Shown here piece by piece: positions 15,642 to 19,841 of a stretch of 41,974 nucleotides of DNA. The notes below the pieces were generated by a model. It ran no database searches. It saw nothing but the letters and a program-made list of their open reading frames with translations, and was not told the origin of the DNA. This DNA comes from a virus: IMG/VR virus record IMGVR_UViG_3300042485_000221, positions 1 through 41,974 of that record; one strand, 5' to 3'. The first letter of the stretch is position 1, and every line of letters starts with the position of its first letter. The translations under genes and the position numbers were made by a program.

Positions 15642-15649
15642 TATTTATC
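15642..15649 (-). promoter_or_regulatory. Late promoter octamer GATAAATA on the reverse strand
   Basis: Reads GATAAATA on the reverse strand and would start a transcript about 14 nt before the AAGGAG of gp14. It lies back to back with the forward octamer at 15699. Confidence 0.6.
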
Positions 15650-16923: not shown

Positions 16924-17352
16924 ATGAATATTGATTTAAACAAGTACAAAGATTTTGTAGAGGTTGTAACTAGTAACCCAAGCAATCATTTTCACATTTT
17001 TCAGCAAAGGTGTGAAGAGCTAAATTCGCAAAATAAAGAAGATGTAACTGGGCCTGCAGTAAATGTTCCGTTGCTGATTACTGCATGTTTGGGTTTAGCA
17101 GCAGAAAGCGGAGAGTTTATCGAGGTAAACAAAAAAATCATTTTTCAAGGTAAAGAATTGAGTGATGAAAACGTTTACCACATGAAACGTGAACTAGGCG
17201 ATATTATTTGGTATTGGATCAATGCTTGCAGAGCATTAGGTTTAGATCCAAACGATGTGATTGCTGAAAACGTTAAAAAGCTTGAAGCAAGATATCCTGG
17301 CGGCACGTTTGATCCATTCTATTCTGAAAATAGAAAAGAGAATGATTTATAA
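16924..17352 (+). CDS. mazG: MazG-like nucleotide pyrophosphohydrolase
   Basis: 142 aa, single MazG domain. The metal-binding pattern is complete: E61-x-x-E64 in AAESGEFIE and E90-x-x-D93 in KRELGDIIWY, followed by the conserved Y-P-G-G-x-F end (RYPGGTFDPF). MazG cleaves NTPs or (p)ppGpp to monophosphates; phage versions are thought to recycle host nucleotides or change the starvation signal, though work on a cyanophage MazG points to GTP/dGTP rather than ppGpp (from memory). Excellent ribosome site GAGGAG before ATG. The stop codon overlaps the ATG of the next gene. Confidence 0.88.
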   Translation: MNIDLNKYKDFVEVVTSNPSNHFHIFQQRCEELNSQNKEDVTGPAVNVPLLITACLGLAAESGEFIEVNKKIIFQGKELSDENVYHMKRELGDIIWYWINACRALGLDPNDVIAENVKKLEARYPGGTFDPFYSENRKENDL

Positions 17353-17570
17353 TGCAAAAATGGGAGGATGATCTTTATCTTTTTACACCAGAAGAATTAG
17401 CAAAGATTCCTGAAGGTACAGTACTTACTTGTATTGACATGGAAAACTATACCAAAGGAAAAGATCACTTAGACGATGATACTAGATTTGGCTGTACAGC
17501 ATATGGTGTAAAAGATCCATGGAATCATCCCCTTAAAGATTTGTTTTTGATATTTAAACTTATAGAATAA
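17352..17570 (+). CDS. Small acidic protein, unknown function
   Basis: 72 aa with a high share of Asp/Glu in the middle (DHLDDDTRFG). It has the pattern LFTPEELAKIPEGTVLTCIDMENYTKG, then GCTAYGVKDPWNHPLKDLF, which looks like a small beta domain with two cysteines. ATG overlaps the last base of the MazG stop, so it is translated with MazG. It is too short for a confident family. It is followed directly by the promoter of the RNA candidate. Confidence 0.6.
   Translation: MQKWEDDLYLFTPEELAKIPEGTVLTCIDMENYTKGKDHLDDDTRFGCTAYGVKDPWNHPLKDLFLIFKLIE
17541..17568 (+). promoter_or_regulatory. Sigma70-like promoter ahead of the structured RNA
   Basis: TTGTTT (17541-17546), 16-nt spacer, TAGAAT (17563-17568). 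Transcription would start near 17575, at the left edge of the structured stretch. Confidence 0.4.
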
Positions 17571-17574
17571 TTGT

Positions 17575-17985
17575 TTATCAAGCAAGGTAAGTGTTAGCCA
17601 CAATAACATCCAAGTCCCACCTCAATCCGTGTTGTGTGGGTATAGAAGCGAGTCTAAGCTTGAACTGAGTAAAATCAGTGACTCCATTCACAAGACTACC
17701 CCGAATAGGGATGCCATAAACGTCTAACCCTTGTTAGAAACGTTTCTTGTGTCTAAATGGTTGTTGTTGCCAAGAGATGGTAATTGCGATAGATACTCTT
17801 GGGCTGGTTCAAACTCCTCGGTGAATAGCGTTTGAACGTTAACAGCGAATACGGCAAACTCCCTTTATGGGTTAGTGAGACATAGACAATCCTCCACTGT
17901 AATGTTTGAATTCATCGTTGCCTAAGTACCTCAAGAATAACCCGTGGCTTGTAGATTTTATATCTACTCGCCATGCCCTTAGAAT
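17575..17985 (+). ncRNA. Candidate structured non-coding RNA, about 400 nt
   Basis: A 478-base gap without a protein-coding frame that is packed with helices. Seen by eye: closing helix AGGTA 17585-17589 / TACCT 17927-17931 and TTAG 17594-17597 / CTAA 17922-17925; CCCAC/GTGGG 17616-17640; GAGTC/GACTC 17650-17684 enclosing ACTGA/TCAGT; a domain closed by CATTCACAAG 17685-17694 pairing with CTTGTG...AATG 17746-17759, inside which an 11-bp hairpin (17718-17745, loop CCTT) sits; CCAAGAG/CTCTTGG 17770-17802; GTTCAAAC/GTTTGAAC 17807-17837; and a 12-bp 3' hairpin 17943-17975. The single G-T pair in the last hairpin (17944/17974), the upstream promoter and the neighbours favour the plus strand. No group I intron core, tmRNA or RNase P signature is seen. 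Family unknown; large ornate phage RNAs such as GOLLD, ROOL and the marine IMES classes are the known kinds to compare. Confidence 0.65.
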
Positions 17986-18014
17986 AATTATTTCATGTAA
18001 ACTAAATGTAACCA

Positions 18015-18022
18015 GATAAATA
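18015..18022 (+). promoter_or_regulatory. Late promoter octamer GATAAATA
   Basis: 27-nt leader to gp13. AAGGA at 18034-18038 is best spaced for the ATG at 18049; the ATG at 18042 would only give a 9-codon frame. Confidence 0.6.
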
Positions 18023-18048
18023 GTTATAACATAAAGGAACCATGAAAA

Positions 18049-18825
18049 ATGATCCAAACAATTCCAACTAATCTTAATCTTACTCAATTAAAAGAGCAAT
18101 TATTTAATTCATGTTTATTAAGATTAGGTCAAAATATAATTGATCTTGAAGTTGATCCTGAGCACTTGGAAGTAGCATATAATTATGCTATATCTACATA
18201 TAGACAACGTGCGCAGAATTCCACACAGGAAACTTACACACTTTTTACTATAGAAAAAAATGTAGATACTTATACACTTCCCAGTGAATTTATTAATGTA
18301 AGATGCTTATACCGTAGAACAGTTGGATTAGAAACTGGCCCCGGCGCCAGCTCATTTGATCCATTTTCAAGTGCGATATTAAATACTTACTTGCTTAATT
18401 ATAACTCTGCCGGTGGCTTGGCTACTTACGATTTTTATGCTGGTTATGTTGAGTTAGCTGCTAGAATGTTTGGTGGTTACTTGACTTATACATTTGATCC
18501 TGTATCTAAGACACTTAGAATAGTTCGTGATTTTAAGGGTTCAGGTGAAAAGATCCTTATTTGGGCGGATATCCTGCGACCTGAAGCTACATTGTTACAA
18601 GACCCTTCTACTGGTACTTGGATTCAAGATTATACACTTGCGGTTTTAAAAACTATCATTGGTGAAGCCAGAGAAAAGTTTGCTACTATTGCTGGACCCA
18701 GTGGTGGTACATCACTTAACGGCGCAGCAATGAAAAGTGAAGGCTATGCTATGATAGAGAAATTGATTGATGAACTCAAACGATATGTTGATAATTCACA
18801 ACCTCTGACATGGGTGCAAGGCTAA
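18049..18825 (+). CDS. 13: Neck protein, T4 gp13-like
   Basis: 258 aa. gp13 joins head and tail together with gp14. Diagnostic segments are RLGQNIIDLEVDPEHLEVA (26-44), YNYAISTYRQRAQNST with the long acidic helix, and DTYTLPSEFINVRCLYRRTVG (73-93), matching the gp13 pattern of 'lg...i.veld..hlevaldkAL..YrqrS.ns..es' as I recall it. Length fits T4 gp13 (309 aa) loosely. In T4 genes 13, 14 and 15 follow each other; here gp14 and gp15 lie on the opposite strand about 2.4 kb upstream, with the RNA candidate and MazG in between. Own late promoter octamer and AAGGA site. Confidence 0.82.
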   Translation: MIQTIPTNLNLTQLKEQLFNSCLLRLGQNIIDLEVDPEHLEVAYNYAISTYRQRAQNSTQETYTLFTIEKNVDTYTLPSEFINVRCLYRRTVGLETGPGASSFDPFSSAILNTYLLNYNSAGGLATYDFYAGYVELAARMFGGYLTYTFDPVSKTLRIVRDFKGSGEKILIWADILRPEATLLQDPSTGTWIQDYTLAVLKTIIGEAREKFATIAGPSGGTSLNGAAMKSEGYAMIEKLIDELKRYVDNSQPLTWVQG

Positions 18826-18890: not shown

Positions 18891-19508
18891 ATGCCCAACA
18901 AAATTATATCTATCTCGGGTTTCATAGGCTCGGGTAAAGATACAGCAGCAGAATACTTAATCAACAATCATAATTTTACTAAACTAAGCTTTGCAGGATC
19001 GTTAAAAGATGCTATCGCAGTAGTATTTGGGTGGGATCGTGTTTTACTTGAAGGTGAAACTTTAGAGAGTAGACAATGGAGAGAACAAATTGATCCATGG
19101 TGGGCTGCTAGATTAAACATGCCCCATCTTACTCCTAGATGGATATTACAATACTGGGGTACTGAAGTTTGTAGACATGGTTTTCATAAAGATATTTGGG
19201 TAGCATCGTTAGAAAACAAAATTCTTAAATGCGAAGGTAATATCGTAATAACTGATGCTAGATTTGCTAACGAACTAAGTGTAGTAAAAAAACTAAATGG
19301 AAAATTGATTCGTATTGAACGCGGTGAACTTCCGAACTGGTATGATGATGCTGTTAGATTCAATCAAGGTACTGAAGGTTGCTTACCGCCTCGAGGCGTT
19401 CATGCTAGCGAATACAGTTCTGTAGGATTAGAGTATGATTGTTACCTAGCTAATAACGGCACTAAAGAAGATTTGTTTGCATCATTAAACTTAATAGTCA
19501 ACTTGTAA
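18891..19508 (+). CDS. 1: Deoxynucleoside monophosphate kinase, T4 gp1-like
   Basis: 205 aa. P-loop GFIGSGKDT at residues 10-18 right after the first strand (KIISIS), then the substrate-side segment WREQIDPWWAARL and a helix containing LQYWGTEVCRHGF, typical of T4 gene 1 dNMP kinase, which phosphorylates dGMP, dTMP and hydroxymethyl-dCMP in T4. The protein is slightly shorter than T4 gp1 (241 aa). It has its own sigma70 promoter, fitting early nucleotide metabolism, although it is set among late virion genes. Its last 18 bases overlap the 3' end of the reverse gene at 19491. Confidence 0.85.
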   Translation: MPNKIISISGFIGSGKDTAAEYLINNHNFTKLSFAGSLKDAIAVVFGWDRVLLEGETLESRQWREQIDPWWAARLNMPHLTPRWILQYWGTEVCRHGFHKDIWVASLENKILKCEGNIVITDARFANELSVVKKLNGKLIRIERGELPNWYDDAVRFNQGTEGCLPPRGVHASEYSSVGLEYDCYLANNGTKEDLFASLNLIVNL

Positions 19509-19841
19509 ATCTCCCCTCTTCCAAGTCACTTCTTTTCTTTTGACAACTTCTACGCAGCATAAACATATACTGCGTAGATTGTTTAACTTAATATCAGTTA
19601 AATCCCCGTTGATATGGTACACTACTATTTGAGTAGCGTATACACTTCTAAATCCACATAAGTCACACATTGTTTTTTTCTTATAACCGCTTTTTTGCCA
19701 AAGAAAAGTTCTGGGTTTTTTTCTGGGCTTTTTCCTACCGCAGCTATTACATGTGCTTCTATAATGATACACATTATTTTTCTTATAATTGATAGCACAA
19801 ACACATGTATTACATTTTGGACATATAGGTCTTATATTCAT
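19491..19841 (-). CDS. Zinc-binding/HNH-like conserved phage protein
   Basis: 116 aa. Contains CPKC (8-11), CNSCG (31-35) and CDLCG (59-63), and a C-x-x-C near the end (CLCC), with the segment VVYHINGDLTDIKLNNLRSI that resembles the H-N part of HNH nucleases. Strongly basic (KKPRKKPRTFLWQKSGYKKK), a likely nucleic-acid binder. I recall it from marine T4-likes as a hypothetical protein; nuclease activity is not certain since the paired histidine of the HNH motif is not seen. Start ATG 19841 lies 5 nt after the octamer AATAAATA, a leaderless arrangement, and the gene ends inside the dNMP kinase's last codons. Confidence 0.68.
   Translation of the reverse strand: MNIRPICPKCNTCVCAINYKKNNVYHYRSTCNSCGRKKPRKKPRTFLWQKSGYKKKTMCDLCGFRSVYATQIVVYHINGDLTDIKLNNLRSICLCCVEVVKRKEVTWKRGDLQVDY

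Follow-up and report, generated by a model that had tools for sequence, protein, structure and literature searches.

The DNA analysed here (the window) comprises 41,974 nucleotides of the IMG/VR virus record IMGVR_UViG_3300042485_000221. Within it, the stretch 17571-18014 is flanked most closely by a 72-aa ORF following a MazG-like gene on the 5' side and by a gp13-like neck gene on the 3' side (Table 1). The original prediction had described this stretch as a gene-free gap, which is borne out: no conserved ORF was found in any frame of 17571-18048. The last part of this interval, 17988-18048, holds gp13's late promoter together with its leader and lies outside the RNA element as defined by homology. 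ARAGORN predicts 0 tRNA and 0 tmRNA genes in the 42-kb window. None of the 4227 families of Rfam 15 matches the window at the gathering score, and between 17400 and 18200 there is no match even at E<=5; the same scan of the diverged members L119, L144, L108, L147 and L102 returned chance matches only. These empty scans, of which the Rfam one had been suggested beforehand, agree with the early impression that no tRNA, tmRNA, RNase P or group I core is present. The RNA is therefore not a recognisable GOLLD, ROOL or IMES. Farther downstream in the window, the kinase and sheath genes are separated by a small Cys-rich HNH-like ORF in antisense orientation (19491-19841, minus strand), and in many relatives a similarly sized antisense ORF occurs at an equal distance.

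Table 1. Genes, RNA features and promoter at the locus (window coordinates).
Feature	Position	Strand	Remarks
MazG-like pyrophosphatase gene, upstream neighbour	16924-17352	+	PHROG 229, Pfam PF03819
72-aa ORF, no assigned function, immediately 5' of RNA	17352-17570	+	PHROG 34791, E 4.7e-7
Structured RNA element	17573-17987	+	extent set by nhmmer/blastn homology in relatives
5' H-type pseudoknot	17586-17609	+	S1 17586-17588/17597-17599, S2 17591-17596/17604-17609; double changes in both stems
Helix P2	17616-17640	+	17616-17620/17636-17640; 99.1% of cells paired; CCGU/ACGG to CCCA/UGGG
Helix P4	17689-17695/17745-17751	+	100% paired, 4 double-change pairs; closes P5 and P5b
Helix P5	17719-17722/17741-17744	+	100% paired, 1 double-change pair
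Hairpin P5b	17724-17727/17734-17737	+	83% paired, 3 double-change pairs
Helix P7	17770-17802	+	17770-17776/17796-17802; 100% paired, double changes in 6/7 pairs
Hairpin P8	17803-17846	+	17803-17806/17843-17846, 17808-17813/17831-17836; double changes in 8/10 pairs
Long-range pseudoknot	17819-17917	+	P8 loop 17819-17826 with 17910-17917; 97.4% paired, double changes in 5/8 pairs
Helix 17855-17859/17904-17908	17855-17908	+	encloses CCC/GGG hairpin and P9; double changes in 4/5 pairs
Hairpin P9	17874-17898	+	conserved GACAUAGACAAUCC apical region; 100% paired, double changes in 3/6 pairs
3' hairpin P10	17945-17973	+	17945-17948/17970-17973, 17951-17956/17962-17967
GATAAATA, T4-late-type promoter of gp13, 3' of RNA	18015-18022	+	same motif found ahead of numerous structural genes in the window
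gp13-like neck protein / head-tail adaptor Ad2, downstream neighbour	18049-18825	+	PHROG 211, E 1.9e-25

Homologs were collected by two routes. From a search of IMG/VR with gp13, the best 80 loci were taken, none of them picked for the RNA element; besides the identical L001 and L002, about 15 carry the element upstream of gp13, and in most of the others an upstream ORF, often MazG-like, stops about 40-85 bp short of gp13. A 17-mer from the conserved P9 hairpin, used as a search key, matched at least 80 contigs, nearly all of which contain the full-length element. With later scans included, the collection comprises at least 61 distinct RNA elements from IMG/VR contigs, with a median length of 389 nt. 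Because the 17-mer was the sampling key, its invariance in alignments A2 and A4, and hence part of the apical invariance of P9, is a product of selection; the invariance outside the 17-mer is not. Most long contigs hold a single copy. The 277,516-base contig G003 contains two diverged copies (L178 and L177), i.e. one near gp13 and the other about 220 kb away, and one of them lacks the conserved 17-mer.

Outside the metagenomic contigs, no homolog was detected. Blastn against isolates gave only chance matches of 36-44 nt, a plasmid search one chance match of 36 nt, and a pattern search of GTDB genomes none, where the patterns demand two exact motifs and diverged copies could therefore be missed. 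The cultivated jumbo phages Atu_ph07, PA5oct, Munch, Phosso and XaC1 are related through gp13 (36-41% identity); the gap upstream of their gp13 is short, and CM R1 finds no RNA in any of the five (E>0.3). A 19-bit match of CM R1 in L046 was regarded as fortuitous. On the gp13 tree, presence of the RNA is clustered, yet about nine changes are needed, so that it must have been gained, lost or swapped repeatedly. For instance, L013 holds a cassette of a small ORF plus the RNA, which is missing from its close relatives L019 and L014.

A single sequence does not settle whether the gap encodes an RNA, since its minimum free energy (-110.5) is only mildly better than the shuffle mean of -100.0 (z = -1.58; 9 of 100 shuffles were as good). 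This comparison, put forward with the original prediction, would not have carried the claim of an undescribed large structured phage RNA; covariation in 44-47 relatives, together with the lack of an Rfam match, decides in its favour. In the core alignment A4 (47 sequences, 43 distinct), for which the model comprises 39 pairs in 8 helices including the long-range pseudoknot, 97.1% of 1666 cells hold standard pairs and both sides have changed in 27 of the 39 pairs. The covariation score is 0.423, compared with 0.032-0.102 when the partners are slid. RNAalifold, applied to the gp13-selected set that is independent of the motif, predicts 53 pairs, 25 of them with compensatory changes. A stricter, phylogeny-aware test, i.e. 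an R-scape-like null built for the present analysis, is passed by just 4 pairs (E<0.05), the sequences being closely related; three of these show at least 98% standard pairs, and the fourth, in the indel-prone P5b, 77%. Compensatory base changes beyond chance, as expected of a structured non-coding RNA, are thus found, and on this comparative evidence the locus almost certainly encodes a conserved structured RNA. In the element alignment, G-U pairs outnumber A-C mismatches (67 vs 19), which identifies the plus strand as the RNA strand.

Comparison of the relatives shows a predicted multi-helix fold that includes two or more pseudoknots and, on the 3' side, a hairpin that is conserved; the multibranched arrangement of many nested helices proposed earlier is upheld in the number of helices and in their branching. 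The long-range pseudoknot between the P8 loop and the 3' part is the most convincing feature of the predicted structure. By direct reading, its strands are rewritten in L102 (UUAUGAAAG/CUUUCAUAA), L187 (AAUGUUUC/GAAACAUU), L178 (CCGUGGUGG/CCGCCACGG) and L177 (CCACAAUGU/ACAUUGUGG), and complementarity is held with wholly different bases. One pair of the helix that encloses P9 ranks among the top phylogeny-aware matches, and the P7 loop is strongly conserved. A presumed covariation in the P9 loop (C3-A8 to U3-U8) is broken by L186 and L194 (C3, U8) and was dropped, as was a resemblance to a group I core (GACUA/UAGUC), whose complement is missing in most members.

At the two ends of the element, the predicted helices fared differently. 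The 3' hairpin, placed at 17943-17975, is correct and conserved: P10 can still be folded in almost all of the 45 distinct members although the 5' strands have changed, the exceptions being L147, which does not refold, and L144, which is cut by the contig end. A closing helix (17585-17597/17922-17931) is refuted by the relatives, since the invariant AGG/CCU alone pairs throughout 44 of them and the remaining pairs form in 4-25 of the 44. Its 5' strand forms the local H-type pseudoknot instead. The stems of this pseudoknot in the window were read from the sequence because MAFFT shifts the group by one column; such shifts depress its covariation count.

The RNA is facultative; in two phage lineages it sits within late modules of structural or packaging genes. 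In most members it ends 40-190 bp upstream of gp13 on the same strand, with an intervening ORF in several genomes: 68 aa in L100, 208 aa in L089, where gp13 is some 1.4 kb from the RNA (contigs G007 and G008), and 209 aa in G003 (copy L177). A second group of contigs (L187, L190, L192, L194, L199, L102) has the RNA at the head of a common run of small genes, and in L187 and L102 the gene for the terminase large subunit comes within the next 2-4 kb or so. The neighbours in this second lineage differ, the RNA standing ahead of the terminase operon. The two-lineage pattern could reflect common ancestry of the late module.

For the present phage group, GATAAATA is a T4-late-type promoter consensus found ahead of many structural genes; in the window it occurs at 2370, 5991, 8112, 10420, 18015, 19908, 23584, 26975 and 30698 on the plus strand and at 15649 on the minus strand. 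A sigma70-like promoter had been placed at the left edge of the element, and none starts transcription there: between 15600 and 18060, 6 sigma-70-like matches were found and 7.4 are expected from shuffles. Terminator-like hairpins stand immediately 5' of the RNA in many members, though not in the window. In L007, L012, L121, L148, L155 and L186, these are strong GC hairpins with T-runs or A-runs, from a few to about 20 bases away. Hairpins so close to the 5' edge leave at most very little space for a promoter. Upstream of the RNA, GATAAATA occurs in L199 and CATAAATA in L194. A second small hairpin pair, e.g. GAACTTAGCTTGCTAAGTGAAGG...GACTTCGGTC, recurs in both lineages (L148, L155, L157, L135, L158, L089 and L187, L190, L192, L199, L202, L102) 3' of the RNA and ahead of the following gene; it may be a 3' extension of the RNA or a separate element.

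From these sequence comparisons we lean towards the view that the locus is the gene of a structured RNA of about 390-420 nt on the plus strand, most likely expressed late in infection, which would fold and act in trans. Late expression is suggested by the late-module setting. Action in trans, taken by itself, is fairly probable in view of the position independence, the presence of two copies in a single genome and the fact that gp13 has its own promoter; the nearly constant site of the RNA before gp13 in most members counts against it, being expected of a cis role as well. That role would be a cis-acting leader (riboswitch-like, a processive antiterminator or an mRNA-processing element) for the downstream late operon, i.e. 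gp13 or terminase. It would account for an RNA on the strand of the next gene and usually close to it, heading late structural or packaging genes in both lineages. Nevertheless, we consider it unlikely. The RNA is most likely not the leader of gp13, because gp13 has its own late promoter 3' of the RNA, and this promoter is kept in the RNA-less relatives L019 and L014; a single transcription unit with a promoter only upstream of the RNA is not what we find, although read-through transcripts may occur. Moreover, genes intervene in several genomes, one copy is far from gp13, and the terminator-like hairpins stand before the RNA, not after it, which is the wrong order for an antiterminator.

The multi-pseudoknot fold and the adjoining neck (head-completion) and terminase genes in two lineages would also suit a packaging RNA, which like the phi29 pRNA would form a ring or bracket at the portal or terminase during DNA filling. 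Close relatives dispense with the RNA, however, and T4-type terminases are not known to need one, which makes this quite improbable. Size, pseudoknots and facultative presence within a fixed gap recall a large ribozyme or an ORF-less intron-like element. This explanation is very improbable: neither a group I or II catalytic core nor flanking exons were found, the RNA is intergenic, the Rfam models of group I, group II, RNase P and HEARO fail to match it even at E<=5, and in the flanks examined neither a nuclease nor an RT was recognised immediately beside it. Finally, the gap varies between close relatives, as might a DNA element (a recombination or replication site) with palindromes that mimic helices, or a decayed gene; the covariation of the long-range pseudoknot, the one-strand bias of G-U over A-C and the lack of a conserved ORF in any frame leave this hardly credible.

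If the trans-acting RNA is the correct reading, its source would be a late or a read-through transcript, from which it is released, since in several genomes the upstream terminator-like hairpin leaves no room for a promoter of its own. With or without a protein partner, it might then provide a scaffold for some late stage of infection, for example the assembly of virions or the takeover of the host. An assembly scaffold or ribonucleoprotein, a packaging RNA and an RNA-only oligomer are all conjectures, and any one specific function has a rather low probability.

To our knowledge, few RNAs of such size and intricacy exist in bacteria and their viruses. The phi29 packaging RNA (174 nt) comes from a phage gene, is structured, acts in trans and is linked with the packaging machinery; the present RNA is likewise a structured phage RNA gene, for which trans action and a tie to packaging are conjectured, but it is not homologous and belongs with another packaging motor. 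HEARO / IscB omega RNA, found in phages and bacteria, is similarly a structured RNA of a few hundred nt, whereas here there is no CM match and no IscB/TnpB gene was recognised in the flanks examined. GOLLD, a large, ornate RNA with pseudoknots, occurs in phages and prophages as well as in aquatic metagenomes; its function is unknown, its expression is reported to rise in lysis, and its members are often longer than 800 nt and often near tRNA islands (PMC12286853). ROOL, a large phage and prophage RNA with several pseudoknots and no known protein partner, was solved as a 659-nt molecule (PMC12286853). The present RNA resembles GOLLD as a large, ornate, pseudoknotted phage RNA and ROOL in its several pseudoknots, but it matches the CM of neither; at about 390 nt it is shorter than GOLLD and than the solved ROOL, and it has another gene context, adjoining neck or terminase genes. 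The tRNA-island location that is frequent, not universal, in this kind of RNA does not apply in the 42 kb. No description of the RNA was found in the open-access literature, where a negative is not proof. Since there is no Rfam match, GOLLD and ROOL are merely nearest in kind and the related isolates lack the RNA, it is a new family of the same loose kind.

GOLLD, ROOL and OLE, whose structures were recently resolved, form RNA-only homo-oligomers, two of them nanocages. The RNA described here adds a further family, unrelated to these three, whose natural variation suffices to fix its secondary structure and among whose members candidates for structure determination can be chosen. That it represents a new phage RNA machine for virion assembly or packaging, common to T4-like jumbo phages and to phages whose terminase module is a different one, independent of the phi29 pRNA and unrelated to GOLLD and ROOL, is improbable on present evidence. 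Its site beside head-completion and terminase genes nonetheless makes a role in assembly or packaging a concrete and testable hypothesis.
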